NCBI RefSeq assembly: GCF_030246905.1
Contig: NZ_CP126741.1
Coordinates: 2,790,001 to 2,854,000 of the forward strand
DNA: 64,000 bases
DNA from: Microbacterium sp. zg-Y818
GTDB lineage: Bacteria; Actinomycetota; Actinomycetes; Actinomycetales; Microbacteriaceae
Direction of reading: 5' to 3'
The notes under the pieces are model-generated. The model made no database searches. It saw only the letters and a list, made by a program, of their open reading frames with translations, and was not told the DNA's origin. Positions within the stretch are counted from its first letter, which is position 1; each line of letters opens with the position of its first letter. This document shows positions 4,177 through 41,644 of this stretch, piece after piece. The position numbers and the translations under genes are program-made.

Positions 4177-4190
4177 GGAAAGCGCTATCC
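4177..4190. promoter_or_regulatory. LacI-type operator, rhamnogalacturonan regulon site 1
   Basis: GGAAAGCGCTATCC is a near-perfect palindrome (6 of 7 paired positions) with the CG centre typical of LacI-family sites. It overlaps the expected -35 region of the dehydrogenase/glycosidase operon, whose -10 is TAGGGT at 4164-4159 on the minus strand. It matches five further sites in the window. Confidence 0.75.
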
Positions 4191-4210
4191 GCACACTCCC
4201 CCGCCACCCC

Positions 4211-4239
4211 TTGGACAGCAGACGCCACGTGGTTAGCCT
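4211..4239 (+). promoter_or_regulatory. Leaderless promoter of the DUF1295 gene
   Basis: TTGGAC (4211-4216), a 17-bp spacer and TAGCCT (4234-4239) lie 7 nt before the ATG at 4247, so transcription should begin at or next to the start codon. There is no Shine-Dalgarno sequence. Confidence 0.6.
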
Positions 4240-4246
4240 GAGGCCT

Positions 4247-5089: not shown

Positions 5090-5096
5090 GCGGCGA

Positions 5097-5813
5097 TCAG
5101 GGCGACGGCCACTCCCAGGTCTGCAGGCGCCCGCACATACCGTAGCCGCGTTCGCCGGGCGTGGGCTGGCCGCGCACGACGGATGCCGCGGTCATGAGCC
5201 CAGGCTCCCCCGCGGCGAGCGCGACGAGCTGTGCGCGGGTGCGCTCGGTCTCGGCGGCGACGGTCCGGTCCCACCGCTCCTGCCAGTGCTCCACCCGGCT
5301 GCGCACGAGAGCGACGGCAGCCGCGTGGAACGGGGCGAGGGCCGCGACCCCGTCGCGCTGCACCGCGTCGCGCAGAGCCAGGTAGCCGGCGACGGCGAGG
5401 TCGCGACGGGCGCGGGCGGCATGGGCACGCCCCTCCCCCTCGGGCAGCGTCGACGCCGCGGCGTAGGCAGCCGGGTCGGCGAGCACCTCGGGCGGGAACG
5501 TCAGCACCGCGTCGCCTGCCTCGGGGAGCCCGGCGTTGGACATCACCACCAGCAGCCGCAACCCGCCGTCGTTGACGAGGCGGTGCACGGTTCCGGGCGA
5601 GAACCACAGCACGTCCCCCGGTGCGAGCGGATGCACCTCGGCACCGGCGGCCGAGAGGGTCTCGACCGAGCCCGTGCCGCCGACGACGATGTAGCCCTCG
5701 CTCGAGGCGGTGTGCAGGTGCGGTGAGCCGCCGCACCGACCGTCGACGGCCTCGGCGTCGTAGACCATGAGGTCGCTGACCGCCACCCCGCCGGGGAAGA
5801 GCGGCGTGGTCAT
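5097..5813 (-). CDS. Cupin-domain protein
   Basis: A 238-residue protein. Residues about 15-110 form one cupin barrel: motif 1 is GGSPHLHTASSEGYIVVGG (metal-ligand His, His and Glu) and motif 2 is PGTVHRLVND (His). A helix-rich C-terminal half of about 110 residues (repeated ARARRD, RVEHWQERW-type helices) is unusual for a single-domain cupin. It has no signal peptide. The start codon overlaps the stop of the DUF6807 gene by 4 bp (5810-5813), so it is the last gene of the operon 9672-5097. A role in sugar isomerisation or epimerisation, or in sensing, is possible; no reaction can be assigned. Confidence 0.75.
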   Translation of the reverse strand: MTTPLFPGGVAVSDLMVYDAEAVDGRCGGSPHLHTASSEGYIVVGGTGSVETLSAAGAEVHPLAPGDVLWFSPGTVHRLVNDGGLRLLVVMSNAGLPEAGDAVLTFPPEVLADPAAYAAASTLPEGEGRAHAARARRDLAVAGYLALRDAVQRDGVAALAPFHAAAVALVRSRVEHWQERWDRTVAAETERTRAQLVALAAGEPGLMTAASVVRGQPTPGERGYGMCGRLQTWEWPSP

Positions 5814-6724
5814 GCGCCGGCCGCGATCACGTCGCGCACCGTGTCTGCGAGCCCGGCGGCAGCGTCGGCGCCGCCGTCGGCGATGCCGACGCCGTACCGG
5901 AACGCCGCAGTGTGCCCCGGCGCCACCACCAGCTCGTCGCTGAAGAAGGGCGCGGGGTTCAGGCACGCGAATTCCTCGGAGCGGGCGAACCACTGCGGCG
6001 GGTGCTGCGGATTGTCGGCGGCATCCACCATGACGATGAGCGACTCGCCGTCGATCTCGTCATGCCGGCCGACGAAGCCCATCCACTCGTGCCGCTGGCC
6101 GCGCACATCGTTGCCGGAGCCGGTGCCCGATGCCGTCACGAGCGTGCCGCCGGTGAATGAGCGCGGTCCGCGCCAGAACAGTCCCCCGTACCCGGCGTTC
6201 TCACGCCCCCGGGTGGTGGGCGAGCCGATCGGGATCGGGGCGTCGGTCACGTTCGTCATCGCGGTGTCGACGGTGAGCGCCCAGGCGCCGCCCTCGAGGG
6301 TGCGTGCGGTGATGGCGCGCCGCTCGGTGAAGAGGTGGATGCCGCCCTCGCTCACCCAGTCCAGCTCGTGGGCGAAGCGCACGACCCCGCCGGCAGCCAC
6401 GTCGAGCTGTTCGATGCGGCGGTGCGCCTGGGTGCCGTCGTTGGGCAGCTGCACGTACGACTGACCCTGCACGTAGGTGGGGCCGCCCCAGAAGTTCTCC
6501 TCGCCGACGACCGGCAGCGACCAGGCGATGCCCTTGTGCCACACGTGGTCCCACGGGCGGTAGAGGCTCATGAGCCGTCCCGAACGGGTGCGCAGTGGAT
6601 GCAGGTAGGGCTTGGGGGACTCCAGCTGGGGCGAATCGGGCACGTACGTGTAGCGCAGCAGCTCGACGTCGCCGTCGCGGACGGTGAACGCGGTGGCGTC
6701 GTCGTGGTCGATCTCGAGGGTCAT
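5810..6724 (-). CDS. DUF6807 (PmoA-like) family protein
   Basis: A 304-residue protein recognisable as DUF6807 by its landmarks: RPYLHPLRT-like KPYLHPLRTRSG, then RPWDHVWHKGIAWSLP near residues 55-70, NFWGGPTY, and a late FFSDELVVAPGHTAAFRYGV. Members are annotated as PmoA family but are found far from methane oxidisers, commonly beside Gfo/Idh dehydrogenases in carbohydrate loci. The conserved histidines in the HPLR and DHVWHKG motifs look like an active or metal site. The gene overlaps the dehydrogenase upstream by 4 bp (6721-6724) and the cupin downstream by 4 bp, giving strict translational coupling of the three. No function is proven for the family. Confidence 0.75.
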   Translation of the reverse strand: MTLEIDHDDATAFTVRDGDVELLRYTYVPDSPQLESPKPYLHPLRTRSGRLMSLYRPWDHVWHKGIAWSLPVVGEENFWGGPTYVQGQSYVQLPNDGTQAHRRIEQLDVAAGGVVRFAHELDWVSEGGIHLFTERRAITARTLEGGAWALTVDTAMTNVTDAPIPIGSPTTRGRENAGYGGLFWRGPRSFTGGTLVTASGTGSGNDVRGQRHEWMGFVGRHDEIDGESLIVMVDAADNPQHPPQWFARSEEFACLNPAPFFSDELVVAPGHTAAFRYGVGIADGGADAAAGLADTVRDVIAAGA

Positions 6725-7842
6725 CGGGTGGTCTCCATCGCGGGCTTGACGGGCGGCCACGGCACGGCGCCGCCGGCCATGGACTGCAGGAACGGGTCGT
6801 CGCCGGCGATCCCGCCGGCACGCACCGGCACCCCGCGGAAGGCCGACGCGTAGGTGGCGGCGGCGAATTCGAGGGTGCGGCGGGCGTCGTCGGCATCCAC
6901 CCCGGGCGTCTCCCCGGCGGCGAGCGCGTCGACGATCGCGGCGATCTGCGCCCGGTGGCCGCTCGGCCCGCCGTCGGGCTCGCTCTCCCACAGCTCGGCG
7001 AGGTGCTCGTGCCCGGGGGCGGGGGTGAAGGTCCAGTCGGCGTCGGTGTAGCCGTACAGGTGCTCCAGCTCGACGGTGGCGTGCGCGAAGTCGAACCGCA
7101 GCCGAGAGGTCTCCCGCGGCGAGACGATGGAGTTGACCACCGTCGCCAGCGCACCGTTGTCGAATTCGACCAGCGCCATCGAGACGTCCTCCGTGTCGGT
7201 GGGCAGCTGCCTGCGGGCGGCGAACGCGGTCAGGCGCGACCAGGGGCCGAGCACGGCCAGCAGCAGGTCGAACTGGTGGATGCCGTGACCCATCGTCGGC
7301 CCACCGCCCTCGATCTCCCAGCGGCCGCGCCAGGGGAGGTCGAAGTACTCGGGGCCGCGATGCCACAGCGTCTCGCACGTCGCCACGAGCGGGCGGCCGA
7401 GCGCACCGTCTGCGACGAGGCGCATCAGGCGCTGTGCACCCGCTCCGAAGCGGTGCTGGTACACCGTGAGCGCCGGCACCCCCGTCTCGCGCGAGACCGC
7501 GACCAGCTCGTCCATCTCGGCGAGGCTCAGCGCCGTCGGCTTCTCGATGAGCGCCGGCACGCCGGCGCGCAGCGCCGCGATCGCCAGCGGCACGTGCGTC
7601 TGCGGCGGGGTGCAGATGTGCACGAGGTCCAGCTGCTCCGATGCCAGCAGGGCGTCGGCGTCGGGGTAGACCGCGTCGGCGCCGAAGCTCTGAGCGAACT
7701 CCCGCGCGCGATCAGTGTCGAGGTCGACGACGGCGGCGAGCGCGATGCGCGGCGCCAGGTCGTCGAGGGCCTGCGCGTGGGCGTGAGCGATGCCCCCGGT
7801 TCCGATGATCGCCGCCCGCAGTGGGGGTCTGGCATCCGTCAT
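6721..7842 (-). CDS. Gfo/Idh/MocA-family NAD(P)-dependent oxidoreductase (copy 2)
   Basis: A 373-residue dehydrogenase. Rossmann motif AAIIGTGGIAHAHA at the N-terminus, HICTPPQTHVPLAI, PALIEKPTALS with the EKP catalytic Lys, and the active-site GHGIHQFDLLLAV. It looks like a paralogue of the copy at 3057 (the two share TCETLWHR/VCQTLWFR and PWRGRWE/PWRGSWE blocks). The start is the ATG at 7842, 45 bp after the ABC transporter gene in the same direction. In an operon with DUF6807 and a cupin it probably oxidises a sugar or a glycoside ring carbon; the substrate is unknown. Confidence 0.85.
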   Translation of the reverse strand: MTDARPPLRAAIIGTGGIAHAHAQALDDLAPRIALAAVVDLDTDRAREFAQSFGADAVYPDADALLASEQLDLVHICTPPQTHVPLAIAALRAGVPALIEKPTALSLAEMDELVAVSRETGVPALTVYQHRFGAGAQRLMRLVADGALGRPLVATCETLWHRGPEYFDLPWRGRWEIEGGGPTMGHGIHQFDLLLAVLGPWSRLTAFAARRQLPTDTEDVSMALVEFDNGALATVVNSIVSPRETSRLRFDFAHATVELEHLYGYTDADWTFTPAPGHEHLAELWESEPDGGPSGHRAQIAAIVDALAAGETPGVDADDARRTLEFAAATYASAFRGVPVRAGGIAGDDPFLQSMAGGAVPWPPVKPAMETTR

Positions 7843-7887: not shown

Positions 7888-9672
7888 TCAGGTGAGCCCG
7901 GTCTGGGTCATGTGCAGGCGCGCGTAGCGTCCGTCGGCGGCGAGCAGGTCGTCGTGCGTCCCCTGTTCGACGATGCGGCCCTGCTCCAGCACGACGATGC
8001 GGTCGGCCATGCGCACGGTCGAGAGCCGGTGGGCGACGACGAGGGTCGTGCGCCCGCGCATGAGGCGGCCGAGCGCCTCTTTCACCAGCTCTTCGGACTC
8101 GGGGTCCAGGGCGCTCGTGGCCTCGTCGAGCAGCAGGATGCGGGGGTCCCGCACGAGCGCGCGGGCGATGGCCAGGCGCTGGCGCTGACCGCCCGACAGG
8201 CGCGCTCCGCGCTCGCCCACGACGGCGTCCCAGCCGCGCGGCTGCGCGCTGACGAACTCCCACGCGTTGGCGTCGCGCAGCGCCTGCTCGATGCGCTCGT
8301 CGCTCACGTCGGGGAGGCCGTAGGCGATGTTCTCGCGGATGGTGCCCTCGAACAGCACCGACTCCTGCGGCACGACCGACACCGACCGCCGCACCGTTCG
8401 CAGGTCCAGCTGCTGCATGTCGGCGCCGTCGAGCAGGATGCGCCCCGTCGTCGGCCGCAGGAACCCCAGCACCATGTTCAGCAGCGTGGACTTGCCCGAC
8501 CCGGAGGATCCGACGAAGGCGAACGTGCGGCCGGCGGGGATGTGCAGGTCGATGTCGTGCAGGGCGTCGTCGTCGGCGCCGGAGTAGCGGTGCGAGGCGC
8601 GTTCGAGCACGATGTCGCCCGTCACGGCCGACACGGCCCGCTTGCCCTCGTTCTGCTCGAGGTCGGGCTCCTGCAGCACCTCGGCGATGGAGCGCACCGA
8701 CTCGAGGCCTCGCGCGCCCACGGGGATCAGCATCAGCAGCTGGGTGAGCCCTTGGGTGAGCAGCGTGAAGTAGGTCGAGAGCAGCACGACTTCGCCCGGC
8801 GAGATGGGAAGGATGCCGGTGAGCGAGAACACCGCTGCGAGCACGAGGCATCCGACCCCGAGCAGCTGCATGGCCACCCACGAGATCGAGGCGACGTGGC
8901 CGTTGAGCATGTCGAGATGCAGACCCGCGCGGCGCACCCCCTCGGCGCCGGAGCTGACGCGGGTGACGGCGGTTTCCTCCAGGCCGTGCGCGCGGGTGAC
9001 GGGGATGAGCGAGGCCATCTCCCCCACCCGCGCCGACAGCGTCTCGACCTCGCGGCGGAAGACCTCGTTGCGAGTGCGGGAGCGGTTGCGCATGCCCCAG
9101 CGGATGCCGATGGCGATCGGCACCGCGAGCGCGTACACCGGCAGGAACTGGGGCACGGCGATCGCCGTCATCGACAGTGCGCCGATCATGACCATCGTGG
9201 CCGACAGCAGCGGATGGGTCACCTGCTGCAGCATCAGCTCGACGTTCTCGACGTCGCGCACCACCTTGGTCTGCACGATCGCGGCGCTCATGCGCGTGTG
9301 GTAGCCGATCGACAGGCTCTGCAGGCGCGCCGCGAGGGCGTTGCGCAGGTCCGCGCCGGTGTCGCGGACGACCGTCATGAAACTGCGCGTGTAGAGGATG
9401 TGGTTCGGGTAGTTCTGCAGCAGCAGCACCACCGCCAGCGCGAACCACCAGAGCACCGCGGTGACCTCGCCCCCGCCCGCGACGATGTCGATGATGGCGG
9501 CGGTGATGACCGGGAGAAACCACATCGGGATCTCTTTGACGGCGAACGCGCTCACCGCCAGCGCCATGCGCCCGGGTCGGCGCGCGAGCAGCCGCAGGAC
9601 CGATCGGGCCGGATGAGCGCCGTCGATCAGGTCCAACGAGCTGGAAAGCGGTTTCCGTGGCACGATGTCCAT
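7888..9672 (-). CDS. ABC transporter, fused permease and ATPase (exporter-type half transporter)
   Basis: Up to 594 residues: six membrane helices in the first 330 or so residues, then an ATPase domain with Walker A GSSGSGKST, Q-loop VVPQES, signature LSGGQRQRLAIARAL, Walker B ILLLDEATSALD and the H-loop AHRLSTV. This is the type IV (exporter) layout with both domains on one chain, probably a homodimer. It is the first gene of the operon running to the cupin at 5097. Start: ATG 9672, or GTG 9663, which sits 7 nt after a TACGAT -10 element (minus strand, 9676-9671) and would make the message leaderless. The LacI-type operator at 9643 lies inside the first codons. Its cargo is not known. Confidence 0.85.
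   Translation of the reverse strand: MDIVPRKPLSSSLDLIDGAHPARSVLRLLARRPGRMALAVSAFAVKEIPMWFLPVITAAIIDIVAGGGEVTAVLWWFALAVVLLLQNYPNHILYTRSFMTVVRDTGADLRNALAARLQSLSIGYHTRMSAAIVQTKVVRDVENVELMLQQVTHPLLSATMVMIGALSMTAIAVPQFLPVYALAVPIAIGIRWGMRNRSRTRNEVFRREVETLSARVGEMASLIPVTRAHGLEETAVTRVSSGAEGVRRAGLHLDMLNGHVASISWVAMQLLGVGCLVLAAVFSLTGILPISPGEVVLLSTYFTLLTQGLTQLLMLIPVGARGLESVRSIAEVLQEPDLEQNEGKRAVSAVTGDIVLERASHRYSGADDDALHDIDLHIPAGRTFAFVGSSGSGKSTLLNMVLGFLRPTTGRILLDGADMQQLDLRTVRRSVSVVPQESVLFEGTIRENIAYGLPDVSDERIEQALRDANAWEFVSAQPRGWDAVVGERGARLSGGQRQRLAIARALVRDPRILLLDEATSALDPESEELVKEALGRLMRGRTTLVVAHRLSTVRMADRIVVLEQGRIVEQGTHDDLLAADGRYARLHMTQTGLT
9643..9656. promoter_or_regulatory. LacI-type operator, rhamnogalacturonan regulon site 2
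   Basis: GGAAAGCGGTTTCC, 6 of 7 palindromic positions. It lies within the first codons of the ABC transporter gene, just downstream of its presumed transcription start, and about 75 bp upstream of the divergent acetylesterase gene. It can therefore serve both directions. Confidence 0.75.
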
Positions 9673-9729: not shown

Positions 9730-10401
9730 ATGACCTATCACCTCGCCGGCGACTCGACCGTCGCCCCCATGAAGCGCGGCGAAGAGCCGATGGCGGGCTG
9801 GGGCGAGGCGCTGGGTGACGCGCTCGGGCAGCCGGTGCGCAATCTCGCCTTCGGCGGCGCCACCACGGCGTCCTTCGTCGCGTCCGGCTCATGGGCGACG
9901 CTCCTGTCCGAGGTCGTCGCGGGTGACACGGTCGTCATCCAGTTCGGTCACAACGATCAGAAGGACCCGCAGCTCGCCGCCCGCGGCGGCTACGCCGACA
10001 GGCTGCGCGGATTCGTCGACGATGTGCGGGCGCACGACGCCGTCACGGTGCTGTGCACGCCGTGCGAGCGCCGCTGGTTCGACGGGGAGCGGGTCACCCC
10101 GACCCACGGCGACTACCCCAACGCCGTACGCGATCTCGCCGCCGACCTCGGGGCGGCGCTCATCGACCTCACCGTCTTCACGACGTGGCTCTACGAGGAT
10201 CTCGGGCCTGCGGCATCCACCCGCCTGCTGTCGCACTACGCCCCGGGCGAGGCCGTCGCGTGGCCCGAGGGGCTCGCGGACGACACGCACTTCCGCCTGG
10301 AGGGGGCACGGCGCATCGCCGCGTTCGTCGCCCGCTCGCTGCGCGCGATCGAGCGCCGGGACGGCGACGCGCCTGCCCGCGGGTCGCAGCTGGTCAGCTG
10401 A
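9730..10401 (+). CDS. rhgT: Rhamnogalacturonan acetylesterase (CE12, SGNH hydrolase)
   Basis: A 223-residue SGNH/GDSL hydrolase of the RhgT/YesT type that removes acetyl groups from rhamnogalacturonan I. Block I is LAGDSTVA with nucleophile Ser9; block II is NLAFGGATTASF; block III is VIQFGHNDQKD with the conserved Asn; block V is DDTHFRLEGA, giving the Asp184-x-x-His187 pair. The GDSTV start and QFGHNDQK block are the CE12 hallmarks. There is no signal peptide, so it should act inside the cell on imported oligosaccharides. A Gly-Gly-Gly-rich SD (GGGAGACACC) precedes ATG 9730. It is divergent from the ABC operon, with the shared LacI-type operator between. Confidence 0.88.
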   Translation: MTYHLAGDSTVAPMKRGEEPMAGWGEALGDALGQPVRNLAFGGATTASFVASGSWATLLSEVVAGDTVVIQFGHNDQKDPQLAARGGYADRLRGFVDDVRAHDAVTVLCTPCERRWFDGERVTPTHGDYPNAVRDLAADLGAALIDLTVFTTWLYEDLGPAASTRLLSHYAPGEAVAWPEGLADDTHFRLEGARRIAAFVARSLRAIERRDGDAPARGSQLVS

Positions 10402-10407: not shown

Positions 10408-11451
10408 TCAGGCGAAGGGCAGCGCCGTGGGACGCTGCCTTCCCGCATGCGTCACGCTCGGCCATCGCGGGTCGACGGTGAGCACCTCGACGCCGCTGTC
10501 GGTGACCAGCACCGTGTCCTCGACCTTCGCCCCCGGCGCACTCGGATTCCACGCGAACGCCTGGTCCACGGCGATCAGGTCCAGAGTCTGGGCCGTTGCC
10601 CGCGGGTCGCGGCCGGCGTAGCCGGTCGGCCCGCCCTGGTGGTGGCGGGTCCACTCCTCGGCGTCGAACCCGTGCGCACCGTAGGCCGCGCAGCCCCGGG
10701 CGAACGCGTGGGCCAGAACGGCGCCGGGCCGCGTGGCCGCGAAGAAGTCCTTCTCCACGGCGAGGATCCGCTCGTCATCCGGCCCGGCCGCCCCGACCCA
10801 CCGCGTGACGTTCGCGATGAGGCCGTGCCGCCGACCGCAGACGACGAGCATCGCACGGTCGCCCAGGGGCGCGTCAGTCGGCAAGGGGTGACGGTGCGCG
10901 TGACGCGAGCGGCCCGCCACGAGGATCACCAGCGGGTCGATGCCTCGTCCGGCGAGCGCCGCAGCCAGCACCGACGCCGCACCGCGCTCGCTGCTTTCAG
11001 GGGTGAGCGTGGCCGCGGCATCCGTCATCGCCTCTGCGGTCTGGCGACCGAGCAGCCGATACCGGTCGCGCTCCCCCGGCAGCAGGGTCGCCCGCGCGGC
11101 GCGCAGCGACTGGGCGAGTGCGGCCTCGGCCGCGGCAGGACCGGCGGCCGCAGCCGCATCTGCGGGAGGCGTCTGCCACGGCACGCGCACGATGCGCGCC
11201 GCGTCGCCCGGGAGCAGCTCCTCTTCGGCCAGACGCTCGGCCTCGTTCGCCGCGACGAAGAGGTGGTCGCCGTCTGCGCCGACCCGCACCGCCAGCACCG
11301 GGGGGCCCGCCAGCGAGACGTGGGTGCGCACGCCGTCGAGGTACCAGGACACCGCCTCGTGCGAGGTGAGGACAAGCGCGTCGGCGCCGGCCTCGGAGCG
11401 CACCCGGGCGAGGCGCTGCTGCTTGACTCTTCGATCGGCGAGGGAAGGCAT
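10408..11451 (-). CDS. M24-family peptidase-like protein, metal ligands apparently altered
   Basis: A 347-residue protein with the creatinase/Xaa-Pro peptidase layout: an N-terminal domain (residues 1-130; LVLTSHEAVSWYLDGV) and a pita-bread C-terminal domain. The late HHQGGPTGYAGRDPR and FAWNPSAPGAKVEDT blocks are typical for one M24 subgroup. The two metal-binding aspartates expected in the D-x-G and D-x-TR positions are not seen: the strand reads MLVVCGRRHG and the next NVTRWVG. It may be inactive as a peptidase or have another reaction. Convergent with rhgT (6 bp apart) and divergent from the LacI gene across a LacI-type operator, so it belongs to the pectin regulon. Confidence 0.7.
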   Translation of the reverse strand: MPSLADRRVKQQRLARVRSEAGADALVLTSHEAVSWYLDGVRTHVSLAGPPVLAVRVGADGDHLFVAANEAERLAEEELLPGDAARIVRVPWQTPPADAAAAAGPAAAEAALAQSLRAARATLLPGERDRYRLLGRQTAEAMTDAAATLTPESSERGAASVLAAALAGRGIDPLVILVAGRSRHAHRHPLPTDAPLGDRAMLVVCGRRHGLIANVTRWVGAAGPDDERILAVEKDFFAATRPGAVLAHAFARGCAAYGAHGFDAEEWTRHHQGGPTGYAGRDPRATAQTLDLIAVDQAFAWNPSAPGAKVEDTVLVTDSGVEVLTVDPRWPSVTHAGRQRPTALPFA

Positions 11452-11468: not shown

Positions 11469-11482
11469 GGAAAACGATTTCT
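11469..11482. promoter_or_regulatory. LacI-type operator, rhamnogalacturonan regulon site 3
   Basis: GGAAAACGATTTCT, 5 of 7 paired positions, lies between the divergent M24-like gene (start 11451) and the LacI gene (start 11528). A TATGGT -10 for the LacI gene follows at 11491-11496. This position suggests autoregulation of the LacI protein. Confidence 0.65.
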
Positions 11483-11527
11483 CGCCATAGTATGGTCTCG
11501 GGACACCAGATCGGAACGGAGCGCGTC

Positions 11528-12529
11528 ATGCGCAGGACGACGAGCAAGGCCACCATCACCGACGTGGCGCGCCGAGCCGGGGTGTCCCTGTCGACGGTGT
11601 CGCGCGTCATGAACGGCAATGCCACGGTCGATGCCGGACTGGCCGAGCGCGTGCGCGCCGCCGCTGTCGAACTCGGCTACACCGCCAGCCCGCTCGCCAG
11701 GAGCCTGGTGCTCGGGCGCACCCAGACCATCGCCGTGGTCGTGCCCGACCTCGCCAACCCGACCTTCCAGGAGATCCTGCGGGGCCTCAGCCGGGCGGCC
11801 GCGGGCGACGGCTATCACGTGCTCATCGCCGACTCCGCCGAGCAGGTCGATGAGGAGCGGGTGCTCGCCGCCGAGACGCGACGGCGCACCGACGGCGTGG
11901 TGCTGTGCGCCCCGCGCATGCCCGACGACGAGCTGGGCGCCCTCCTTCCCGCTCTCTCCCCCGCCGTGGTGGTCAACCGGCCGCCGCAGGCCGGTGCCCC
12001 CGTGGTGGCCGCCGACTACCGCACCGCCTTCGCCGACCTCATCGACCACCTGTACGGGCTCGGCCATCGCCGGCTGGTCTATCTCGCCGGCCTCGCGCGC
12101 AGCGCCTCCAACGCGGCACGGCTCGCCGCTCTGGCCGATGCCCGCGCGGCCCACACCGACCTCGAGATCACCGAGGTGGCGTGCGGCGTCGACTTCGACA
12201 GCGGCGCGGCCGCCGCAGCGGCCGTTCGCCGCAGCGGTGCGACGGGCGTGCTCGCTTTCAACGACCTCGTCGCGATGGGCCTGCTGTCGGCCCTCGCCGA
12301 CCGAGGGGTGCGGGTACCCGAGGACCTCTCCGTCGCCGGCTTCGACGACATCCCCTTCGCGCAGTACACGACTCCGCCGCTGACGACGGCGGCCGTGCCG
12401 GCGTCGGACCTCGGCGCCCGCGCCTGGCAGGCGATGCATGCGCTGCTCACCGGCGGCGACGCCGAGGCGGCGGTCTCGCTCATCCCGCGCCTCATCGTGC
12501 GCGCGAGCACCGGCCGCGTCCCCGCCTGA
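11528..12529 (+). CDS. LacI-family transcriptional regulator (presumed rhamnogalacturonan-locus regulator)
   Basis: A 333-residue LacI protein. The N-terminal helix-turn-helix is TITDVARRAGVSLSTVSRVM (residues about 8-27), with the hinge helix ASPLARSLVLGRT; the rest is a periplasmic-binding-protein-like sensor domain ending in FDDIPFAQYTTPPLTT. SD GGAG lies 7 nt before ATG 11528. Its gene is surrounded by genes with GGAAAnCGnTTTCC sites, including one in its own promoter, so it is the natural regulator of all of them. The inducer is probably a galacturonate- or rhamnogalacturonan-derived sugar; this is inferred. Confidence 0.85.
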   Translation: MRRTTSKATITDVARRAGVSLSTVSRVMNGNATVDAGLAERVRAAAVELGYTASPLARSLVLGRTQTIAVVVPDLANPTFQEILRGLSRAAAGDGYHVLIADSAEQVDEERVLAAETRRRTDGVVLCAPRMPDDELGALLPALSPAVVVNRPPQAGAPVVAADYRTAFADLIDHLYGLGHRRLVYLAGLARSASNAARLAALADARAAHTDLEITEVACGVDFDSGAAAAAAVRRSGATGVLAFNDLVAMGLLSALADRGVRVPEDLSVAGFDDIPFAQYTTPPLTTAAVPASDLGARAWQAMHALLTGGDAEAAVSLIPRLIVRASTGRVPA

Positions 12530-12580: not shown

Positions 12581-12604
12581 TGCTACGCTGAGAAAACGTT
12601 TCCT
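12581..12604 (+). promoter_or_regulatory. Extended -10 promoter with LacI-type operator, regulon site 4
   Basis: TGCTACGCT (12581-12589) is an extended -10 (TGn-TACGCT); no good -35 is visible. The operator AGAAAACGTTTCCT (12591-12604; 6 of 7 paired) follows at once and would cover the transcription start, a classic repression position. It controls the five-gene galacturonate operon 12629-18359. Confidence 0.7.
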
Positions 12605-12628: not shown

Positions 12629-13966
12629 ATGACGAAGACCCGCTACGCGCTTCTGGGCGCCGGCCACCGCTCGCAGATGTACGTCGATGCGATCACGGGC
12701 GACTATGCCGACCGGGCCGACCTCGTCGCCGTCTGCGAGCCGAACCCGGTGCGCGCGGCCCACGCCGTCGAGCGGGCCGTGTCTCGGGGCGCCGCCGCCC
12801 CCACGGCGTGGGAGCCCGACCGCCTCGAGCAGATGATCGCCGCCGAGCGCATCGACCGGGTTGTCATCTGCGCCCGCGACGACCTGCACGCCGAGCTCAT
12901 CGTGCGCTCCCTCGACGCCGGAGCCGACGTCGTGGTGGAAAAGCCCCTCACGATCGATGCCGCCAGCGCCGCCGCGATCGAGGATGCCGTCGCGCGCACC
13001 GGGCGCTCCGTGGTGCTGACCTTCAACTATCGGTACTCGCCCCGCAACAGCGCGCTGCGCCAGGTCATCCAGGACGGCCTCATCGGCGAGGTCACCTCGA
13101 TCGACTTCTCGTGGATGCTCGACACCAAGCACGGCGCGGACTACTTCCGCCGCTGGCACCGCGAGAAGGAGCACTCCGGCGGCCTGCTCGTGCACAAATC
13201 CAGCCACCACTTCGACCTCGTCAACTGGTGGATCCGGCAGCAGCCGCGCCGCGTCTACGCCTCGGGCGGGCTGCGGTTCTACGGCGCCGACAACGCCGCC
13301 CGCCGCGGACTGGGCGATCGACCCGACCGCGGCACGCACGGGGGCGACCACGACCCGTTCGAGCTCGACCTGCGCGACGACCCGCGTCTGCAGGCGCTGT
13401 ACCTCGACGCCGAGCACCACGACGGCTACCTGCGCGACCGCGACGTCTTCGGCCCCGGCATCACGATCGAGGACAACCTCGCCCTGGTCGTCGACTACTC
13501 CGGCGGCGCGACGCTGTCGTACTCCCTCAACGCGCACGCGCCTTGGGAGGGCTACCGAGTGGCCGTCAACGGCACCCTCGGCCGCGCCGAGCTCGAGGTC
13601 GTCGAACGCGGCGCCGTGCTCGTGGACGAGGGCCTTCACCCCGTCATCGATCCGAGCGCGGTGGATGCCGCAGGCTCGGCATCCCTGCGCCCCCAGGGGG
13701 AGCGCCTGCTGGTGCAGCGCCACTGGGAAGAGGCCGTCGAGGTGCCGATCGAGAACGCCGCAGGTGGGCACGGCGGCGGCGACGCGCTGCTGCTGTCGGA
13801 CGTCTTCGTCGGCCCCGGTGACGATCCGCTGTCCCGGCCCGCGGACTGGACAGACGGCCTGCGCTCGATCGCCGTCGGGATCGCCGGCAACCGCTCGCTC
13901 GAGACCGGCCTGCCGGTGCGGATCGACGAACTCGGCATCGCCCTGCTCGGACAGCCGACCCGATGA
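12629..13966 (+). CDS. Gfo/Idh/MocA-family oxidoreductase (copy 3, long form)
   Basis: A 445-residue member, longer than copies 1 and 2. N-terminal YALLGAGHRSQMYVDAI Rossmann motif, VVICARDDLHAELI, VVVEKPLTID with the catalytic Lys near residue 106, and a C-terminal domain with FNYRYSPRNSALRQVI and HKSSHHFDLVNWW. The long C-terminal part with GGDALLLSDVFVG resembles members that act on larger glycosides. It is first in an operon whose other genes form the oxidative galacturonate route, all overlapping or nearly so (ATGA at 13963). It might oxidise galacturonate itself or a galacturonosyl oligomer; unresolved. Confidence 0.8.
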   Translation: MTKTRYALLGAGHRSQMYVDAITGDYADRADLVAVCEPNPVRAAHAVERAVSRGAAAPTAWEPDRLEQMIAAERIDRVVICARDDLHAELIVRSLDAGADVVVEKPLTIDAASAAAIEDAVARTGRSVVLTFNYRYSPRNSALRQVIQDGLIGEVTSIDFSWMLDTKHGADYFRRWHREKEHSGGLLVHKSSHHFDLVNWWIRQQPRRVYASGGLRFYGADNAARRGLGDRPDRGTHGGDHDPFELDLRDDPRLQALYLDAEHHDGYLRDRDVFGPGITIEDNLALVVDYSGGATLSYSLNAHAPWEGYRVAVNGTLGRAELEVVERGAVLVDEGLHPVIDPSAVDAAGSASLRPQGERLLVQRHWEEAVEVPIENAAGGHGGGDALLLSDVFVGPGDDPLSRPADWTDGLRSIAVGIAGNRSLETGLPVRIDELGIALLGQPTR

Positions 13967-14904
13967 GCCGCATCGTCGTCACCGGCGGCGCGGGCCGTCT
14001 CGGCCGCAGCCTTGCCGCGGGCTTGGCCACGGCCGGGCACGACGTGCTGTCGCTGGACCGCGACACCTCCCCCGAGCTCGCCCGCGCCGGCGTCGACCAG
14101 GTGTCGATCGACCTGTGCGACGCGCAGGCCACCCGTGACGCCCTCGAAGCCGCCCGCAGCGACGCGGTCGTGCACCTCGCCGCCATCGCCGTGCCCTTCA
14201 GCGCTCCGGAAGACGTGATCCTGCGCACCAACGCCGCCCTCGCCGTCTCGGTGCTCGGCGGCGCGGTGGCCGCAGGCGTGGGCAAGGTGGTCGCGGCATC
14301 CAGCCCGACCGTGCTCGGCTACAACGCACCCACGGGGTGGGTGCCCGACCGGTTTCCGCTGGACGAACAGACCCCGCCCCGCCCGTGGAACGCGTACGCG
14401 CTGTCGAAGCTCGTCATCGAGCAGACGGTCGACATGCTGCGCCGGCAGACGGGTGACGCCGTGCGGTTCGCCTCGTTCCGGCCCTGCTACGTGCTGACGC
14501 CCGAGGAGTGGGCCGGCGCCCCGACACAGCAGGGGCACACGGTGCGCGAGCGCCTGGACGATCCCGCGCTGTCGGCGCCGGCACTGTTCAACTACGTCGA
14601 CGCGCGCGACGTCGCCCGCTTCACCGACACGCTGCTGGCCGCCCTCCCCGACATCCCCAACGGCGAGACCTTCTTCGTCGGCGCCGACGACGCCCTCGCC
14701 CGGGAGCCCCTCGCCATGCTCATCCCGCGGTTCCACCCCGGCACCGACGACGTCGCCGCCGAGCTCACCGGCACCGCGCCGGCCTTCTCCAGCGCGAAGG
14801 CGCTGCGGCTGCTGGGCTGGGCTCCGCAGCACCGCTGGCGGGACGAACTCGCCCGCACCGACGCCTGCGACCCCCTCACCACCCGAAAGGACGTGCCCGC
14901 ATGA
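13963..14904 (+). CDS. NAD-dependent epimerase/dehydratase, candidate uronate dehydrogenase
   Basis: A 313-residue extended short-chain dehydrogenase. VTGGAGRLGRSLA at residues 6-18 is the NAD-binding motif, VVHLAAIA follows, and the catalytic pair is in NAYALSK (Tyr-x3-Lys). The G-x-LG layout, the ASSPTVLGY strand and short size fit uronate dehydrogenases (Udh), which turn galacturonate into galactaro-1,5-lactone. The downstream cycloisomerase, KdgD and semialdehyde dehydrogenase are exactly the later steps of that route. It overlaps both neighbours by 4 bp (13963-13966 and 14901-14904). The family also includes sugar-nucleotide epimerases, so the Udh role rests mainly on context. Confidence 0.6.
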   Translation: MSRIVVTGGAGRLGRSLAAGLATAGHDVLSLDRDTSPELARAGVDQVSIDLCDAQATRDALEAARSDAVVHLAAIAVPFSAPEDVILRTNAALAVSVLGGAVAAGVGKVVAASSPTVLGYNAPTGWVPDRFPLDEQTPPRPWNAYALSKLVIEQTVDMLRRQTGDAVRFASFRPCYVLTPEEWAGAPTQQGHTVRERLDDPALSAPALFNYVDARDVARFTDTLLAALPDIPNGETFFVGADDALAREPLAMLIPRFHPGTDDVAAELTGTAPAFSSAKALRLLGWAPQHRWRDELARTDACDPLTTRKDVPA

Positions 14905-15800
14905 ACTTCGACGGCATCCTCTTCTTCCCCGTCACCCCGTTCGACACCGCGGGGCGGGTGGACACCGACCTGCTGGCCACGCACGTCGCCACCGGGCTCT
15001 CCCACGCCCCCGGCGGCATCTTCCCCGCCTGCGGCACGGGCGAATTCCACGCCCTCAGCGCCGCCGAGGCCACCACGGTGACCCGCACGGCCGTGGCGAC
15101 CGTCGCCGGCGCCGTGCCGGTCGTCGCGGGGGCGGGAGGCCCGCTCGGGCACGCGCTGGAGGTGGCCCGCGGTGCGGCCCACGCCGGAGCCGACGCACTG
15201 CTGGTGCTGCCGCCATACCTCGTCGGCGGACCGCAGGCCGGGCTCGTGGCCTACGTCGAGGCGATTGCCGCGGCATCCGACCTGCCGGTCATCGTCTACC
15301 ACCGCGGCAACGCGCAGTTCACCCCCGCGTCGGTGCGTCGCCTGCTCGAGAACCCGAAGGTCATGGGCTTCAAGGACGGCGTCGGCGACATCGGTACCGC
15401 CCAGCTGATCGTGCGCGCAGTGGCGCAATCGGGCCGCGACGACGTCGCGCTGTTCAACGGTCTGCTCACCGCCGAGCTCACCCAGGGCGCCTACCGCGGC
15501 ATCGGCATGCCGCTGTATTCGTCGGCGGCGTTCGCGATGATCCCCGAGGTGGCGGGCGCCCACTACCGCGCCTACGTCGACGGCGACGAGGCCCGGCGCC
15601 TCGCCCTCGTCGACGGCTTCTACGCGCCCCTCGTGGCCCTGCGCGACGAGACCCCCGGCTTCGGGGTGTCGCTCATCAAGGCGGGGCTGCGCCTCGGGGG
15701 CCTGCCCGTCGGCGGCGTCCGGCCCCCTCTCGTCGACCCGACCCCCGAGCAGGAGGCGCGGCTGGCCGACATCCTCGACGCCGGTCGGGCCCTCCTGTGA
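14901..15800 (+). CDS. kdgD: 5-dehydro-4-deoxyglucarate dehydratase (KdgD), DHDPS family
   Basis: A 299-residue class I aldolase-fold dehydratase/decarboxylase converting 5-keto-4-deoxyglucarate to 2-ketoglutarate semialdehyde, water and CO2. Schiff-base Lys158 is in MGFKDGVGD and Tyr133 in VIVYHRGN, the typical KdgD strand (VIVYNR-like). The N-terminal substrate loop is GGIFPACGTGEFHAL, matching the G-G-TGEF motif of KdgD rather than the G-TTGE of dihydrodipicolinate synthases. The start overlaps the stop of the dehydrogenase (ATGA), and its stop overlaps the next GTG start by 4 bp. The product goes to the aldehyde dehydrogenase at 16917. Confidence 0.85.
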   Translation: MNFDGILFFPVTPFDTAGRVDTDLLATHVATGLSHAPGGIFPACGTGEFHALSAAEATTVTRTAVATVAGAVPVVAGAGGPLGHALEVARGAAHAGADALLVLPPYLVGGPQAGLVAYVEAIAAASDLPVIVYHRGNAQFTPASVRRLLENPKVMGFKDGVGDIGTAQLIVRAVAQSGRDDVALFNGLLTAELTQGAYRGIGMPLYSSAAFAMIPEVAGAHYRAYVDGDEARRLALVDGFYAPLVALRDETPGFGVSLIKAGLRLGGLPVGGVRPPLVDPTPEQEARLADILDAGRALL

Positions 15801-16885
15801 CCACGATCGCCTCGCTCGACGCGCGCCTGGTGCGCGTGCCGCTGCGGCGCCCGTGGGGAGCCGACGTCACCAGCGTCGGCGTCGTAGCGACCCACCTCGT
15901 GCGCTCGGACGGCGCCGAGGGCTGGGGATTCTCCTGGACGCCGCAGATCGGCGCCGAGGCGGTGCTGGCGCTGTTGCAGCACGATGTCGCGCCGGCTGCG
16001 ATCGGCCGCTCGGCCGATCCGGGCGAGGCGTGGCTGGGCTTATGGGAGCACCTGCACGAGGCGGGCGGCGGCGGACTCACGACCATCGCCCTGGCCGGGC
16101 TCGATCTGGCGGTGTGGGATGCCGCGGCGCGCGCGGCCGGCGGCACGGTCTCCAACCTGCTCGGCCGGCATCGCCAGACGGCGCGCGTGTACGGCAGCGG
16201 CGTCAACCTGCACTACGCGCTGCCCGAGCTCGTCGCGCAGGCCGAGCGGTGGGTCGCGGCAGGGTTCGACGCGGTCAAGGTCAAGGTCGGCAAGCCCGAC
16301 GCGGCCGAAGACCTCGAGCGCCTGCGCGCCGTGCGCGAGGTCATCGGACCCGACCGCGCGCTCATGATCGACGCCAACCAGCGCTGGGACCTCGACCGCG
16401 CGACGCGGGTGCTCGATGTGCTGGCCGACGTGCAGCCGGCGTGGATCGAGGAGCCGCTGCGCGCCGACGACCTCGCCGGGCACGCCGAACTCGCCCGGCG
16501 GCTGGGCGCCTCGTCGCGACTGCCGATCGCCGTGGGCGAGAACCTGCACACCGCCCACCGATTCGCGGACTACCTGCGCGCGGACGCCGCGCAGATCATG
16601 CAGCCCAACGTCGTGCGTGTGGGCGGCATCACCCCGTTCCTGCGCATCGCCGCCCTCGCCGCCGACCACGGTGCGGCGCTGCATCCCCACCTGCTGCCGG
16701 AGCTCTCCGGCCAGATCGCCCTGTGCCTCCCGCCCGTCGACGGCGTGCCGGCGCCGCTGGTCGAAGACGTCGAAGACGCCGGCTTCGGCGCGCTCGGTGC
16801 CCTCGTCAACCCCTCACCCGTCGCCATCGCCGACGGACAGCTCACCGAGACACCGCACGCGGGCCTGGGCCTGCGCTTCGCGTGA
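15797..16885 (+). CDS. Enolase-superfamily protein, candidate D-galactarolactone cycloisomerase
   Basis: A 362-residue mandelate racemase/muconate lactonising enzyme-type protein. The catalytic Lys pair is Lys161/Lys163 (VKVKVGKP), metal ligands Asp192 (MIDANQRW), Glu218 (WIEEP) and Glu248 (VGENLH), and the late His is in LHPHLLPEL. Start is GTG 15797, overlapping the kdgD stop. In Agrobacterium-type oxidative galacturonate breakdown an enolase-superfamily cycloisomerase opens galactaro-1,4-lactone to 3-deoxy-2-keto-hexarate, the KdgD substrate; that is the best fit here. A sugar-acid dehydratase (galactarate or galactonate) is the alternative. Confidence 0.7.
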   Translation: MTTIASLDARLVRVPLRRPWGADVTSVGVVATHLVRSDGAEGWGFSWTPQIGAEAVLALLQHDVAPAAIGRSADPGEAWLGLWEHLHEAGGGGLTTIALAGLDLAVWDAAARAAGGTVSNLLGRHRQTARVYGSGVNLHYALPELVAQAERWVAAGFDAVKVKVGKPDAAEDLERLRAVREVIGPDRALMIDANQRWDLDRATRVLDVLADVQPAWIEEPLRADDLAGHAELARRLGASSRLPIAVGENLHTAHRFADYLRADAAQIMQPNVVRVGGITPFLRIAALAADHGAALHPHLLPELSGQIALCLPPVDGVPAPLVEDVEDAGFGALGALVNPSPVAIADGQLTETPHAGLGLRFA

Positions 16886-38581: not shown

Positions 38582-38633
38582 GCGCACGAGTCTAGGCGGG
38601 CGGAGGAGGCGCCTGCCCCCTCCGCCCGTCGAC

Positions 38634-41561
38634 TCAGCGGCGGCAGGCCGCCGCGGGGTAGCCCACCTCGTAGGTCGACCGGTACTCGACTCCGTCGACG
38701 ACGGCGGATGCCGTGACCGTCGCGGACCCTGCGGCGACCGAGCGCTCCCGGGTGTTCACGAGCTCGGTGACGATGCCGCCGCGGCGGACATCGGCCTTGT
38801 GCTTCTCGCTGCCCTGCACCGCGACGGTGATGTCGGCGCGTTGCGGCCCGGCGTTGAGCACGAACACACCCACGTAGACCGACCGGCCCACGCAGTGGGC
38901 GTAGGCGTCGGTCAGCAGCCTGGTCGGCTGTCCCTTGGTGACCGTCGCGGTGGGCGACGCGTCCGAGGGTTCGGACGCTCCGGCGGCGCTTCGGGCCACC
39001 ACCGTCGCTGACCAGCGGCCGGGGGCGACCGCGGCGAAGGTGACCGTGCGCACGTCGCCCGCGACCTCCTGCACCAGCGGCTCGCCCTGCTCCGGGGTCA
39101 GCGTCACGACGTACCCGGTGACCTCATGGGTCCCCGGCTCTGCCGGCCCCTCCCACGAGACGGTGACGTCGGTGCCGTCGACGACGAGGCCGGGCGCGGC
39201 GACCGGCTGGGGCGCGGCGCGCAGCGGCACGGCGGAGAAGTCCATGCCCGAGGCGAGGTGGAAGCTCGTGTATGCGGGCTGGTTGTATGTCGTCTGCTGC
39301 CGCGCGATCTCGGCCCGGTACTGCGGGTCGTGCATGAGCGTGTACAGCTTGTGACCCGTCACCTCGGTGGAGGTGTAGACCCGCAGCGCGGCGGAGTCGG
39401 CCGTGCGCACGAGCAGCTCCTCGCGCCAGTCGCCGAACACGTCGGCGACGAGCGAGGGGTTCCCCTTCGTCCCGTTGTTGGTGAGGGTGCCGGATGCCGT
39501 GAGCAGCGTCCCGCGCGTCCAGTCGTCGATCGTCGGGGTGACCTCCCCCGCGCCGTTGACGACCTGGGTCGTGAGATCGCCTGCCCAGCGGATGGACTGG
39601 TTGGTCCCGGGGTTCGTCGGGGCGAGCACGTCGCCCGTTGCGGAGAGCAGCCCCGAGGCATCCGTTCCCGCCGGCATGCTCGACCAGACCTCCATTCCCG
39701 GCACGTCGGCGCGCACGTCGCCGATCATGCCGCGGCCGGTGTCGCGGCCGGAATACGCACCGAAGAGCACCTCGCCGGTGGCGGCGTCGCGCAGCGCAGT
39801 ACCGTACGGCGCCCACGCGCCGCCCTCGTGCACGGTGAAGATCTCCAGACCGGGGCGGGCCGGGTCGATGTCGGCGACGTGCATGGCGTCGCCGTGGCCG
39901 AGGCGGGTGTTCTCGCCCGGGGCGCCGCTGCCTGCGGGCATGACGTCGAACGACGAGTACAGCAGCCCGCCATCGTCGTCGAGCGTCGCGGAGCCGTAGA
40001 CGATCTCGTGGCGGCCGTCACCGTCGACGTCGGCGGCGCTCAGGCTGTGGAAGCCCTGCGTCGTGATCGTGCCGTATTCGGAGTCGGTGCCGTCGCGCCC
40101 GTGCGGGCCGTCGTTGAACGGGTTGGTCAGCGGCACATGCCCGCTGTCGACGAACCAGCGCTGCGACAGGCTCTCGCCGTCCCAGTCATAGGTCGCCACC
40201 GTCGAGCGCGTGTAATAGCCGCGGGCGAACACGGCCGACGGCCGCTCGCCGTCGAGGTACGCGACGCCGGAGAGGAACCGATCCACGCGGTTGCCCGGCT
40301 CGATGCGGCTCATCGCATAGTCACCCCAGAGCAGTCCGTCATCACCGCGACCGGGCTCGTAGCGCACGGTCTGCAGCTCCTGCCCGGTGGCGCCGTCGAA
40401 GACGGTGAGGTACTCCGGTCCCTCGAGGATGAATCCCTCGAACGCGCGCAGCACGTTGCGGGCCGAGCGCCCTGGGGCGAAGACGTCGATGAAGTAGTCG
40501 ACGAGCTCCTCGGCGCTCTCGCGCGACAGCGGGTACTCGTGCGCGACCTCGGTGCCGAACGCCTCCTCGAGCGTTGCGGGCCACTGGCCCGAGACCACCT
40601 CTTGCCGCTCCGACCAGCCGAGGAACATCTGCACGAGGTGCTCCTCATAGTCGGCGGCGCTCATGCGGTAGTCGTCGTCGTGCGAGAAGCCCGCGGCGAG
40701 GTCCTCGGCGGGCATCGTGATGAAGGCCTCGTTCGTCACGGCGCCGTCGGGTCCGAACCCTGTCGATTTCGTGCCGGGAGCGGTCTTGAGCATCGTCTCG
40801 GCACGGCCGTCGCCGTCGAAGTCGTAGACGAGGAACTGCGTGTAGTGGGCGCCGGCGCGGATGTTGTCGCCGAGCTCGATGCGGCTGAGCAGCGTGCCGT
40901 CGAGCTCGTAGGTGTCCAGGAACACCGGGCCGGTGTACCCGACCTGCGAGACGTCCTTGGCGTTGGAAGGGTCCCACTTCACGACGTACTCGTACGCGCC
41001 GTCGCCGTCGACGTCGCCGACCGAGACGTCGTTGGCGGCGTACGTGTACGTCTCGCCGGCGGGGGTCACCCCGTCGGCCGGGCGCGTGAGCGGGATGTCG
41101 AGGTGGCCCTGGGCAAGCGGCGAGACAGGATCGCTCGGCTCCCCCTCGCGGCCGGCGAGCACCGGGGCGACCTGATAGGTCGCCGACGCCGAGCCGGCGG
41201 CATCGAGCAGGTTGGTGCTGTCGGTGACCGTCGCGATCTTCTCGCCGTCGCGGTAGACGGCGAAGTCGGTGCCCGTGAGCCCGGTGGCATCCGCGCCGTA
41301 CGCCTCACCCTGCAGCAGCCGCCAGCTGATGAAGACACCCGATCCAGTGTCGACGGCGACCACGCCGCGGTCGAGCGACTCGAGCTGAGGGCTGGCGGTG
41401 CCGGGGCCGGAGGTGGGGACGGATGCCGCGGCATCCGGTGGCACGGCCGAGGCGGCCGACATCGGGAGGGCCAGGGCGGCGGCGGTCAGGGTCGCCGTCG
41501 CGATCGCAGCGGCACGCCACCGCGGAGAGGTGCGGACGGGCCGCAGGGCAGGGATTGTCAT
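38634..41561 (-). CDS. Secreted rhamnogalacturonan lyase (PL11) with C-terminal FnIII domain
   Basis: A 975-residue exported polysaccharide lyase that cuts the rhamnogalacturonan I backbone. A signal peptide (Arg-rich start, hydrophobic core, SAASA cleavage region) covers residues 1-40. The PL11 eight-bladed propeller follows, with several DVDGDG and DFDGDG calcium-type repeats (NDVSVGDVDGDGAYEYVVKWDPSN, VYDFDGDGRAE, ADVDGDGRHEIVYG) and NPFNDGPHGRDG. Near residues 690-790 lies a fibronectin-III domain, then about 100 residues of another small domain. No LPXTG anchor. SD GAAGG supports ATG 41561 over GTG 41570. YesW-like enzymes are about 600 residues, so the C-terminal third is an addition. 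Confidence 0.9.
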   Translation of the reverse strand: MTIPALRPVRTSPRWRAAAIATATLTAAALALPMSAASAVPPDAAASVPTSGPGTASPQLESLDRGVVAVDTGSGVFISWRLLQGEAYGADATGLTGTDFAVYRDGEKIATVTDSTNLLDAAGSASATYQVAPVLAGREGEPSDPVSPLAQGHLDIPLTRPADGVTPAGETYTYAANDVSVGDVDGDGAYEYVVKWDPSNAKDVSQVGYTGPVFLDTYELDGTLLSRIELGDNIRAGAHYTQFLVYDFDGDGRAETMLKTAPGTKSTGFGPDGAVTNEAFITMPAEDLAAGFSHDDDYRMSAADYEEHLVQMFLGWSERQEVVSGQWPATLEEAFGTEVAHEYPLSRESAEELVDYFIDVFAPGRSARNVLRAFEGFILEGPEYLTVFDGATGQELQTVRYEPGRGDDGLLWGDYAMSRIEPGNRVDRFLSGVAYLDGERPSAVFARGYYTRSTVATYDWDGESLSQRWFVDSGHVPLTNPFNDGPHGRDGTDSEYGTITTQGFHSLSAADVDGDGRHEIVYGSATLDDDGGLLYSSFDVMPAGSGAPGENTRLGHGDAMHVADIDPARPGLEIFTVHEGGAWAPYGTALRDAATGEVLFGAYSGRDTGRGMIGDVRADVPGMEVWSSMPAGTDASGLLSATGDVLAPTNPGTNQSIRWAGDLTTQVVNGAGEVTPTIDDWTRGTLLTASGTLTNNGTKGNPSLVADVFGDWREELLVRTADSAALRVYTSTEVTGHKLYTLMHDPQYRAEIARQQTTYNQPAYTSFHLASGMDFSAVPLRAAPQPVAAPGLVVDGTDVTVSWEGPAEPGTHEVTGYVVTLTPEQGEPLVQEVAGDVRTVTFAAVAPGRWSATVVARSAAGASEPSDASPTATVTKGQPTRLLTDAYAHCVGRSVYVGVFVLNAGPQRADITVAVQGSEKHKADVRRGGIVTELVNTRERSVAAGSATVTASAVVDGVEYRSTYEVGYPAAACRR

Positions 41562-41585
41562 TCGGTTCACCTTCGAATCGGAATC

Positions 41586-41644
41586 GGAATGCGCTTTCCC
41601 CAGTCGCCTCCACGAGCTTATGGGCGCGGCTCCCCCACGGTCAA
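41586..41644 (-). promoter_or_regulatory. PL11 promoter with downstream LacI-type operator, regulon site 6
   Basis: On the minus strand: -35 TTGACC (41644-41639), 18-bp spacer, -10 TAAGCT (41620-41615). The operator GGAATGCGCTTTCC (41586-41599; 6 of 7 paired) lies downstream of the transcription start, where a bound repressor would block elongation. It matches the sites at 4177-18439. Confidence 0.75.

Follow-up and report, generated by a model that had tools for sequence, protein, structure and literature searches.

The window analysed here (64 kb, positions 2790001-2854000 of the 3.23 Mb, single-contig genome of Microbacterium sp. zg-Y818) carries part of a predicted pectin locus at which we found ten operator-like sites of the LacI type, six inside the window and four to its left. 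As judged from comparison with related genomes, these sites form two classes, A and B, which are likely to be read by two LacI-type proteins of distant relationship, each of which would control its own share of the predicted pectin genes, namely g28 within the window and g07 to its left. The genome encodes 25 LacI genes in total. Genes, labelled with g numbers, were called with a codon-usage script and named by Pfam and NCBIfam. The sites and genes inside the window are the following, with site scores in bits for the two class matrices described below and distances in base pairs (bp).

2098..3060, minus strand: g19, glycoside hydrolase (GH) family GH43 (PF04616), downstream of g20 on the same strand
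3057..4130, minus strand: g20, Gfo/Idh/MocA oxidoreductase (Pfam)
4177..4190, no strand assigned: class B site GGAAAGCGCTATCC (B 21.8, A 11.9), 54 bp before g20 and 63 bp before the divergent g21 (DUF1295)
5097..5813, minus strand: g22, cupin (Pfam)
5810..6724, minus strand: g23, DUF6807 (PF14100)
6721..7842, minus strand: g24, Gfo/Idh/MocA oxidoreductase (Pfam)
7888..9567, minus strand: g25, ATP-binding cassette (ABC) protein, a fusion of exporter-type membrane domain and ATPase (PF00664 and PF00005)
9643..9656, no strand assigned: class B site GGAAAGCGGTTTCC (B 22.8, A 14.5), between the divergent g25 (83 bp) and g26 (80 bp)
9730..10401, plus strand: g26, GDSL esterase (PF13472), a putative CE12 esterase according to the initial annotation
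10408..11403, minus strand: g27, M24-like protein, divergent from g28 (PF00557, a weak match of 26.2 bits at a cut-off of 23)
11469..11482, no strand assigned: class A or hybrid site GGAAAACGATTTCT (A 24.2, B 20.4), 16 bp before g28 and 73 bp before g27
11492..12529, plus strand: g28, LacI-family regulator (PF00356, PF13377) with the recognition helix VSLSTVSR, predicted reader of class A
12591..12604, plus strand: class A site AGAAAACGTTTCCT (A 26.4, B 18.2), 31 bp before g29
12629..13966, plus strand: g29, Gfo/Idh/MocA oxidoreductase (Pfam)
13963..14904, plus strand: g30, NAD-dependent epimerase/dehydratase (PF01370), below every NCBIfam cut-off, putative uronate dehydrogenase
14901..15800, plus strand: g31, 5-dehydro-4-deoxyglucarate dehydratase (KdgD; subfamily NF002958, 377 bits, cut-off 278)
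15797..16885, plus strand: g32, enolase-superfamily dehydratase nearest to L-talarate/galactarate dehydratase (226 bits, cut-off of 500 not reached)
16917..18359, plus strand: g33, aldehyde dehydrogenase, likely a 2,5-dioxovalerate dehydrogenase (below the cut-offs of all 25 families listed, of 40)
18426..18439, no strand assigned: class B site GGAAAACGCTTGCC (B 21.4, A 13.1), 23 bp before g34
18456..20213, plus strand: g34, GH35 beta-galactosidase family (PF01301)
20254..21231, plus strand: g35, NAD-dependent, GalE-like epimerase (PF01370/PF16363)
38634..41561, minus strand: g50, polysaccharide lyase (PL) family PL11 rhamnogalacturonan lyase (PF21348, PF18370)
41586..41599, no strand assigned: class B site GGAATGCGCTTTCC (B 17.4, A 11.9), 32 bp before g50

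To the left of the window, the set is completed by four class B sites and by the second regulator and its neighbourhood:

Genome 2778494-2779525 (L010:8494-9525), minus strand: g07, LacI-family regulator, 10.5 kb left of the window
L010:10406-11605, outside the window: DUF993 protein, with the uncharacterised 4dnh as its only sequence relative in the PDB
Genome 2782849: class B site (A 14.4, B 21.5)
Genome 2782882: class B site (A 12.8, B 17.7)
Genome 2788646: class B site (A 12.2, B 21.1)
Genome 2788701: class B site (A 12.8, B 17.7)

The initial annotation had described six window sites by the form GGAAAnCGnTTTCC and had assigned all of them to the LacI protein at 11528 (called here from 11492, g28). 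In a pattern search of the window for this form, 9643 was the one exact match, and the places at 4177, 11469, 18426 and 41586 matched with one mismatch each. Shuffled windows contained on average 0.72 matches with up to two mismatches, and six matches were reached in none of 100 shuffles. The site at 12591 departs from the form at three positions, a level at which shuffles yielded about 11 matches per window; despite this we regard it as real, because the same place is conserved in relatives. A two-mismatch match at 904, absent from the original list, was rejected as a site (A 10.1 and B 8.8 bits). The weight-matrix scan of the genome that had been proposed with the initial annotation was run as a pattern search and returned nine sites with at most one mismatch, compared to one with the reversed pattern, all nine confined to 49 kb (2782849-2831599). 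With up to two mismatches, 56 places were matched versus 23 for the reversed control. Among the 47 two-mismatch extras we inspected the surroundings of eight, located in three regions, of which four lie inside called genes and four are intergenic; a weak site may exist elsewhere in the genome, outside the cluster. From this we conclude that the five window sites with zero or one mismatch are real and specific within the genome, and that the set needs to be extended by the four sites left of the window. The glycosidase, ABC/DUF6807, GH35 and PL11 groups are joined by such genome-specific LacI-type sites, and the gene groups proposed initially largely hold. All ten sites are located at a distance of 16-163 bp from a called gene start.

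The two classes differ mainly in the outer base of the palindrome. Class A, AGAAAnCGnTTTCT, has an outer A and is located in front of g28 and of the predicted oxidative galacturonate operon g29-g33, in which KdgD alone exceeds a curated cut-off (g31 reaches 265 bits with the equivalog KdgD model, below its cut-off of 374), the other genes being named by family and gene order. Class B, GGAAAgCGcTTnCC, has an outer G and is located at 4177, 9643, 18426 and 41586 and at the four places left of the window, i.e. in front of the gene groups of g10, g15, g20, g25/g26, g34 and g50. The site at 11469 combines an A-like with a B-like half.

This distinction is conserved in relatives. We used 80 named loci around g28 orthologues, the nearest named ones by g28 being Microbacterium; the region upstream of each orthologue was searched with the outer base masked, and a site was counted if it matched at least 9 of 10 fixed positions. 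The block g28-g33 is constant in these loci, with 83, 76, 76, 74, 73 and 61 matches of at least 45% identity for g28, g29, g30, g31, g32 and g33, respectively. A site was found upstream of g29 in 75/76 cases, of g10 in 14/14, of g15 in 8/8, of g25 in 9/9 and of g34 in 5/5, and less regularly upstream of g06 (15/21) and g07 (16/21). The best site before g29 was AGAAAACGTTTCCT, the Microbacterium form of class A, in 37 of 75 loci and the Arthrobacter-type AGAAAACGCTTTCT in 23, and the GG...CC form was found before g10, g15, g25, g34, g06 and g07, at times also before g20. Expressed in half-sites, an outer A was present in 219 of 250 at the g28 and g29 promoters and an outer G in 132 of 140 at the g06, g07, g10, g15, g20, g25 and g34 promoters. 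If only distinct 14-mers are considered, the difference persists (g29: A 21, G 10 and T 3 of 34; class B targets: A 7, G 52 and C 1 of 60; Fisher p 1e-7), and 29 of the 33 loci with both kinds of site reproduce the split on their own. As for the four exceptions, L071 ties with AGAAAACGTTTCCT, the site of L100 is mixed, and for L089 and L095 the scoring picked a site within a stretch shared with the divergent g15, with AGAAAACGTTTCCT present 36 bp before g29. The class A site before g29 is asymmetric and has the same orientation relative to g29 in the listed Microbacterium loci.

Class matrices built solely from the sites of relatives, with which we scored the own sites within 96 kb, assigned eight of them to class B and two to class A. 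The ten sites reached at least 17.4 bits, whereas the next best place in the 96 kb reached 11.5. In a leave-one-out assignment, 59 of 64 distinct sites were placed correctly (16/18 A, 43/46 B). The matrices differ most at position -7 (A 0.81 in class A versus G 0.88 in class B). When the centre was left unconstrained, a central CG was present in 67 of 72 sites, and the other five are all located before g07.

The regulator g07 is the fourth gene of an operon with the order Gfo/Idh oxidoreductase (g10), DUF993, TIM barrel, LacI (g07) and glycerate kinase. The g10 promoter holds a pair of class B sites 33 bp apart (L010:12849 and 12882), and the g15 group, consisting of a binding-protein ABC transporter and GH51, a pair 55 bp apart (L010:18646 and 18701). 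In six genomes or loci (own, G008, G096, L069, L072, L074) the two g15 sites have a spacing of 55-56 bp, the distance between the g10 sites ranges from 28 to 56 bp, and cooperative binding at the paired sites is possible. Read toward the gene, the g10 site (L010:12849-12895) has the form GGAAAGCGyTTACC in Microbacterium loci and GGTAArCGCTTTCC, as if inverted, in most loci of other genera (L188-L216).

The occurrence of class B sites follows g07. In 119 genomes of the genus, with g28 called present at an identity of at least 65%, g07 was found in 69 and g28 in 32, all of which also carry g07; 37 genomes have g07 without a close g28, and 50 lack g07. The mean number of B sites per genome was 8.25 with both regulators, 3.68 with g07 only and 1.08 without g07, with the reversed control at 0.56, 0.43 and 0.48, respectively. 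For the g07-only versus the no-g07 genomes, a one-sided Mann-Whitney test gave p 1.3e-10, relatedness being ignored in this comparison, and the 29 of the 37 g07-only genomes without even a weaker g28-like match still have a mean of 3.38 sites. Five of the 37, chosen for their high counts (6-8 sites), were inspected around g07. B sites are located before g10 and g15 in all five and before g25 and g34 in both genomes that show these genes; for g20, a site lies directly in front in G008 and G096 and before a group holding it in G111 and G040. The only PL11 lyase shown among the five, 77% identical and encoded in G111, is preceded by the same B site as g50. Exact AGAAAACGTTTCCT, by comparison, was found in 29 of the 119 genomes, 28 of which carry g28.

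The association extends into other genera of the family. Among 249 genomes drawn from the family, a g10 match at E 1e-110 was present in 66, spanning 34 of 85 genera, and a B site precedes the g10 orthologue in 27 of 29 family loci besides the own one; in the other genera, 55 of 56 half-sites of these sites carry the outer G. In the ten of 28 g28-carrying genomes outside the genus for which site places were listed, a site is always located within 5 kb of the g07 relative; it has the GG..CC form in nine and a mixed form in one, and the recognition helix of the g07 relative reads VSLATASR in nine and VSPATASR in one. Since B sites track g07, persist without a close g28 and adjoin g07 relatives, g07 is the likely reader of class B. 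The assignment of all sites to g28 alone does not hold up in view of these results: the outer base is A at its own sites versus G elsewhere, and the G-class sites track g07 and remain where no close g28 orthologue is present.

Several observations weigh against such a clean division. The 8.25 B sites of genomes with both regulators exceed the 3.68 of genomes with g07 only, for which reason g28 may also bind B sites. The reverse dissociation was not seen, as none of the 119 genus genomes has g28 without g07, and all 28 outside-genus genomes with g28 contain a g07 relative (38-57% identity). The exact class A site is absent in 4 of the 32 genomes with g28 and present in one genus genome where g28 has no close orthologue, G072 (contig 12, 116523). 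In more distant genomes the pattern becomes common (up to 31 matches, with the control at up to 10), so that its specificity is lower there. In the relatives' loci, B sites are patchy before g20 and g26 (3/8 each), and class A before g28 itself was counted in 50 of 81 cases at 9 or more of the 10 positions. A weak difference between the classes is present at -2 and -8 as well, and the relatives' sequences are related to each other and not independent. Finally, not all g28 orthologues have Leu at position 1 of the recognition helix; it was present in 39 of the 52 rows read (of 81).

Both proteins match PF00356 and PF00532/PF13377 above cut-off and have a CG-centred even palindrome, conserved in relatives, in promoters beside their genes. 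Their recognition helices are similar (VSLSTVSR in g28, VSLATASR in g07), and Leu at the first position is found in these two only among the 25 LacI proteins of the genome. In the LacI family, this position and its neighbour set the inner operator bases. The shared Leu would explain why the operators have GAAA..TTTC in common and differ mainly at the outer base. The conserved Arg of the recognition helix contacts the G at -6 (PMC2329647). A recent duplication of g28 and g07 was rejected, since their identity is 35% and they do not group as sisters in a tree of 24 of the 25 LacI proteins, which has long branches and is weakly resolved. The two also differ in the hinge, which reads ARSL in g28 and AQAT in g07. 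In g07 and 29 close orthologues the Ala is kept and the leucine is replaced by Thr (28/30) or Ile (2/30), and more distant g07 relatives have Met, Val, Ile or Leu at this position where it was readable. The CcpA-like LacI subgroup is defined by Ala and Leu in the hinge helix; because the leucine is replaced, g07 was filed as LacI family only. The presumed g07 operators keep the central CG despite this Thr. In another subfamily, loss of both the hinge-helix Ala and Leu is reported to accompany loss of the central CG (PMC2329647).

The strongest competitor, which we nonetheless consider rather unlikely, is full cross-talk, in which both repressors would bind both classes and the outer base would merely tune affinity. 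The overlap of the matrices is compatible with it, since scoring the own sites with the matrix of the opposite class still gives 18.2 and 20.4 bits for the two A sites and 11.9-14.5 bits for the eight B sites, and the half-site consensus of both classes agrees at -6 to -3 and at -1; yet cross-talk would require neither the split inside single loci nor the almost invariant G before g10 in other genera. A single regulon, with g28 binding all sites and g07 as a bystander or additional repressor, appears improbable. The central position of g28 in the cluster, the B-like half of the site at 11469, the richness in B sites of genomes with g28 and the Leu1 and Arg6 shared by both recognition helices would fit it, whereas B sites persist before the same targets in the five g07-only genomes read, precede g10 in 27 of the 29 family loci, and the conserved sites of g28 and g29 have an outer A instead of G. 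A six-site regulon of g28 alone was therefore rejected, as the sites do not vanish without g28 and the operator class differs between targets. A generic role of the palindrome, as a LacI or catabolite-control site open to each of the 25 LacI proteins, is hardly credible and was rejected by the genome scan, because the nine sites form one cluster although LacI genes are spread over the chromosome, and because Leu at helix position 1 is restricted to two proteins, even if CG-centred even palindromes are the rule in this family (PMC4052901).

With two repressors dividing the sites, g07 would bind class B and leave it in response to a breakdown product of the side chains or the backbone, and g28 would bind class A, with galacturonate or galactarate as its inducer. 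Through the hybrid site at 11469, g07 would have access to the g28 promoter as well.

In terms of genes, class A reaches g28 and the predicted oxidative galacturonate operon. Class B reaches the binding-protein ABC transporter with GH51, GH43, GH35, the GDSL esterase, PL11, three Gfo/Idh proteins and DUF6807, as well as the cupin, DUF993, a TIM-barrel isomerase-like protein and glycerate kinase. The exporter-type ABC protein (7888-9567) recurs in relatives with a B site beside DUF6807. A rhamnogalacturonan lyase is thus included with g50, but the initial description of the whole rhamnogalacturonan system as the target proved too wide, because no GH88/105 gene was found and the rhamnose genes are without either site. 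A search with PF07470, which we take to cover GH105, gave no match in the genome and found the family in 3 of 14 control genomes. In the matrix scan, neither class was found upstream of the predicted rhamnose genes:

46857-62814: predicted L-rhamnose cluster with the LacI proteins g56 and g60, an isomerase-like protein, an FGGY kinase and a fused aldolase-dehydrogenase (59333-61369)

The fused enzyme resembles RhaEW (PMC3870299). The galT and galK genes (22396-24776) have no A or B site in the matrix scan either and face another LacI gene, g36. A CG-centred palindrome, ATGTTGACGTGAACAT, is located at 22388 between g36 and galT and is possibly the own site of g36.

The metabolic content of class B can be outlined in part. 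A B site is located directly before the orthologue of g06, the glycerate kinase gene, in 15 of 21 loci, and the gene is still part of the operon in a few, which suggests glycerate as an intermediate of the class B programme. DUF993 proteins carry the NCBI name dihydrodipicolinate synthase family, and Lys226, which is invariant across nine sequences, may be a Schiff-base lysine. For g08, the best three of six PDB sequence relatives were 3ju2, 3qc0 and 7vpf. The PDB relatives of DUF993 and g08 gave no pathway, a PDB sequence search with g23 (DUF6807) returned no significant relative, and the name DUF993 was not found in the open-licence literature searched. As a speculation, which we regard as doubtful, the class B regulon might mark an undescribed, glycerate-ending route for pectin-derived sugar acids with Gfo/Idh oxidation or reduction, a TIM-barrel isomerase, DapA-like cleavage by DUF993 and glycerate kinase. 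Such a route would replace the missing GH88/105 pathway, and its LacI protein, which lacks the hinge leucine, would read a CG-centred operator and be distinguished from the neighbouring LacI protein by a single outer base pair.

The site set ties DUF993, DUF6807, the three Gfo/Idh enzymes and the cupin to the predicted pectin programme independently of gene order, and it points to a regulator that is invisible from the window alone. With g07 and g28, it may also provide a naturally occurring pair of LacI proteins whose relationship is distant and whose operators are distinguished mainly by a single base pair. Because g10 orthologues occur in 34 of 85 genera, with a site in 27 of 29 loci, the result reaches beyond this strain.

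A description of this regulon was not found in the open-licence literature searched (Microbacterium/Microbacteriaceae, LacI, galacturonate, pectin, site letters), and Arthrobacter and rhamnogalacturonan do not occur in the main text of PMC4052901. The local sugar regulons of LacI proteins collected there from RegPrecise are similar with regard to their even palindromes with a central CG, the frequent autoregulation, the diverged sites of related regulators and the presence of glucuronate and galacturonate pathways among the targets, and most of their sites are located 140-30 bp before start codons; they differ in that the g07/g28 pair is not a recent duplication. RhaR of Actinomycetales and RhiR of Rhizobiales and Erwinia are LacI-type regulators of rhamnose and rhamnogalacturonide genes (PMC3870299), which parallels the LacI-type control of genes for rhamnose-containing oligosaccharides via palindromic sites, whereas PL11 and enzymes of the arabinan/galactan type belong to the B set and the rhamnose genes of the window have no site. 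In IdnR and GntR of Enterobacteriales (PMC4052901), two related LacI regulators likewise have overlapping operators within one metabolic theme, but these are closest paralogues, which g07 and g28 are not. A parallel to class B with regard to the operator itself is SacR of Lactobacillus plantarum (PMC2329647), where a conserved G at -7/+7 also widens the operator by one pair per side, with the difference that here the outer base is predicted to set apart two repressors within one locus.

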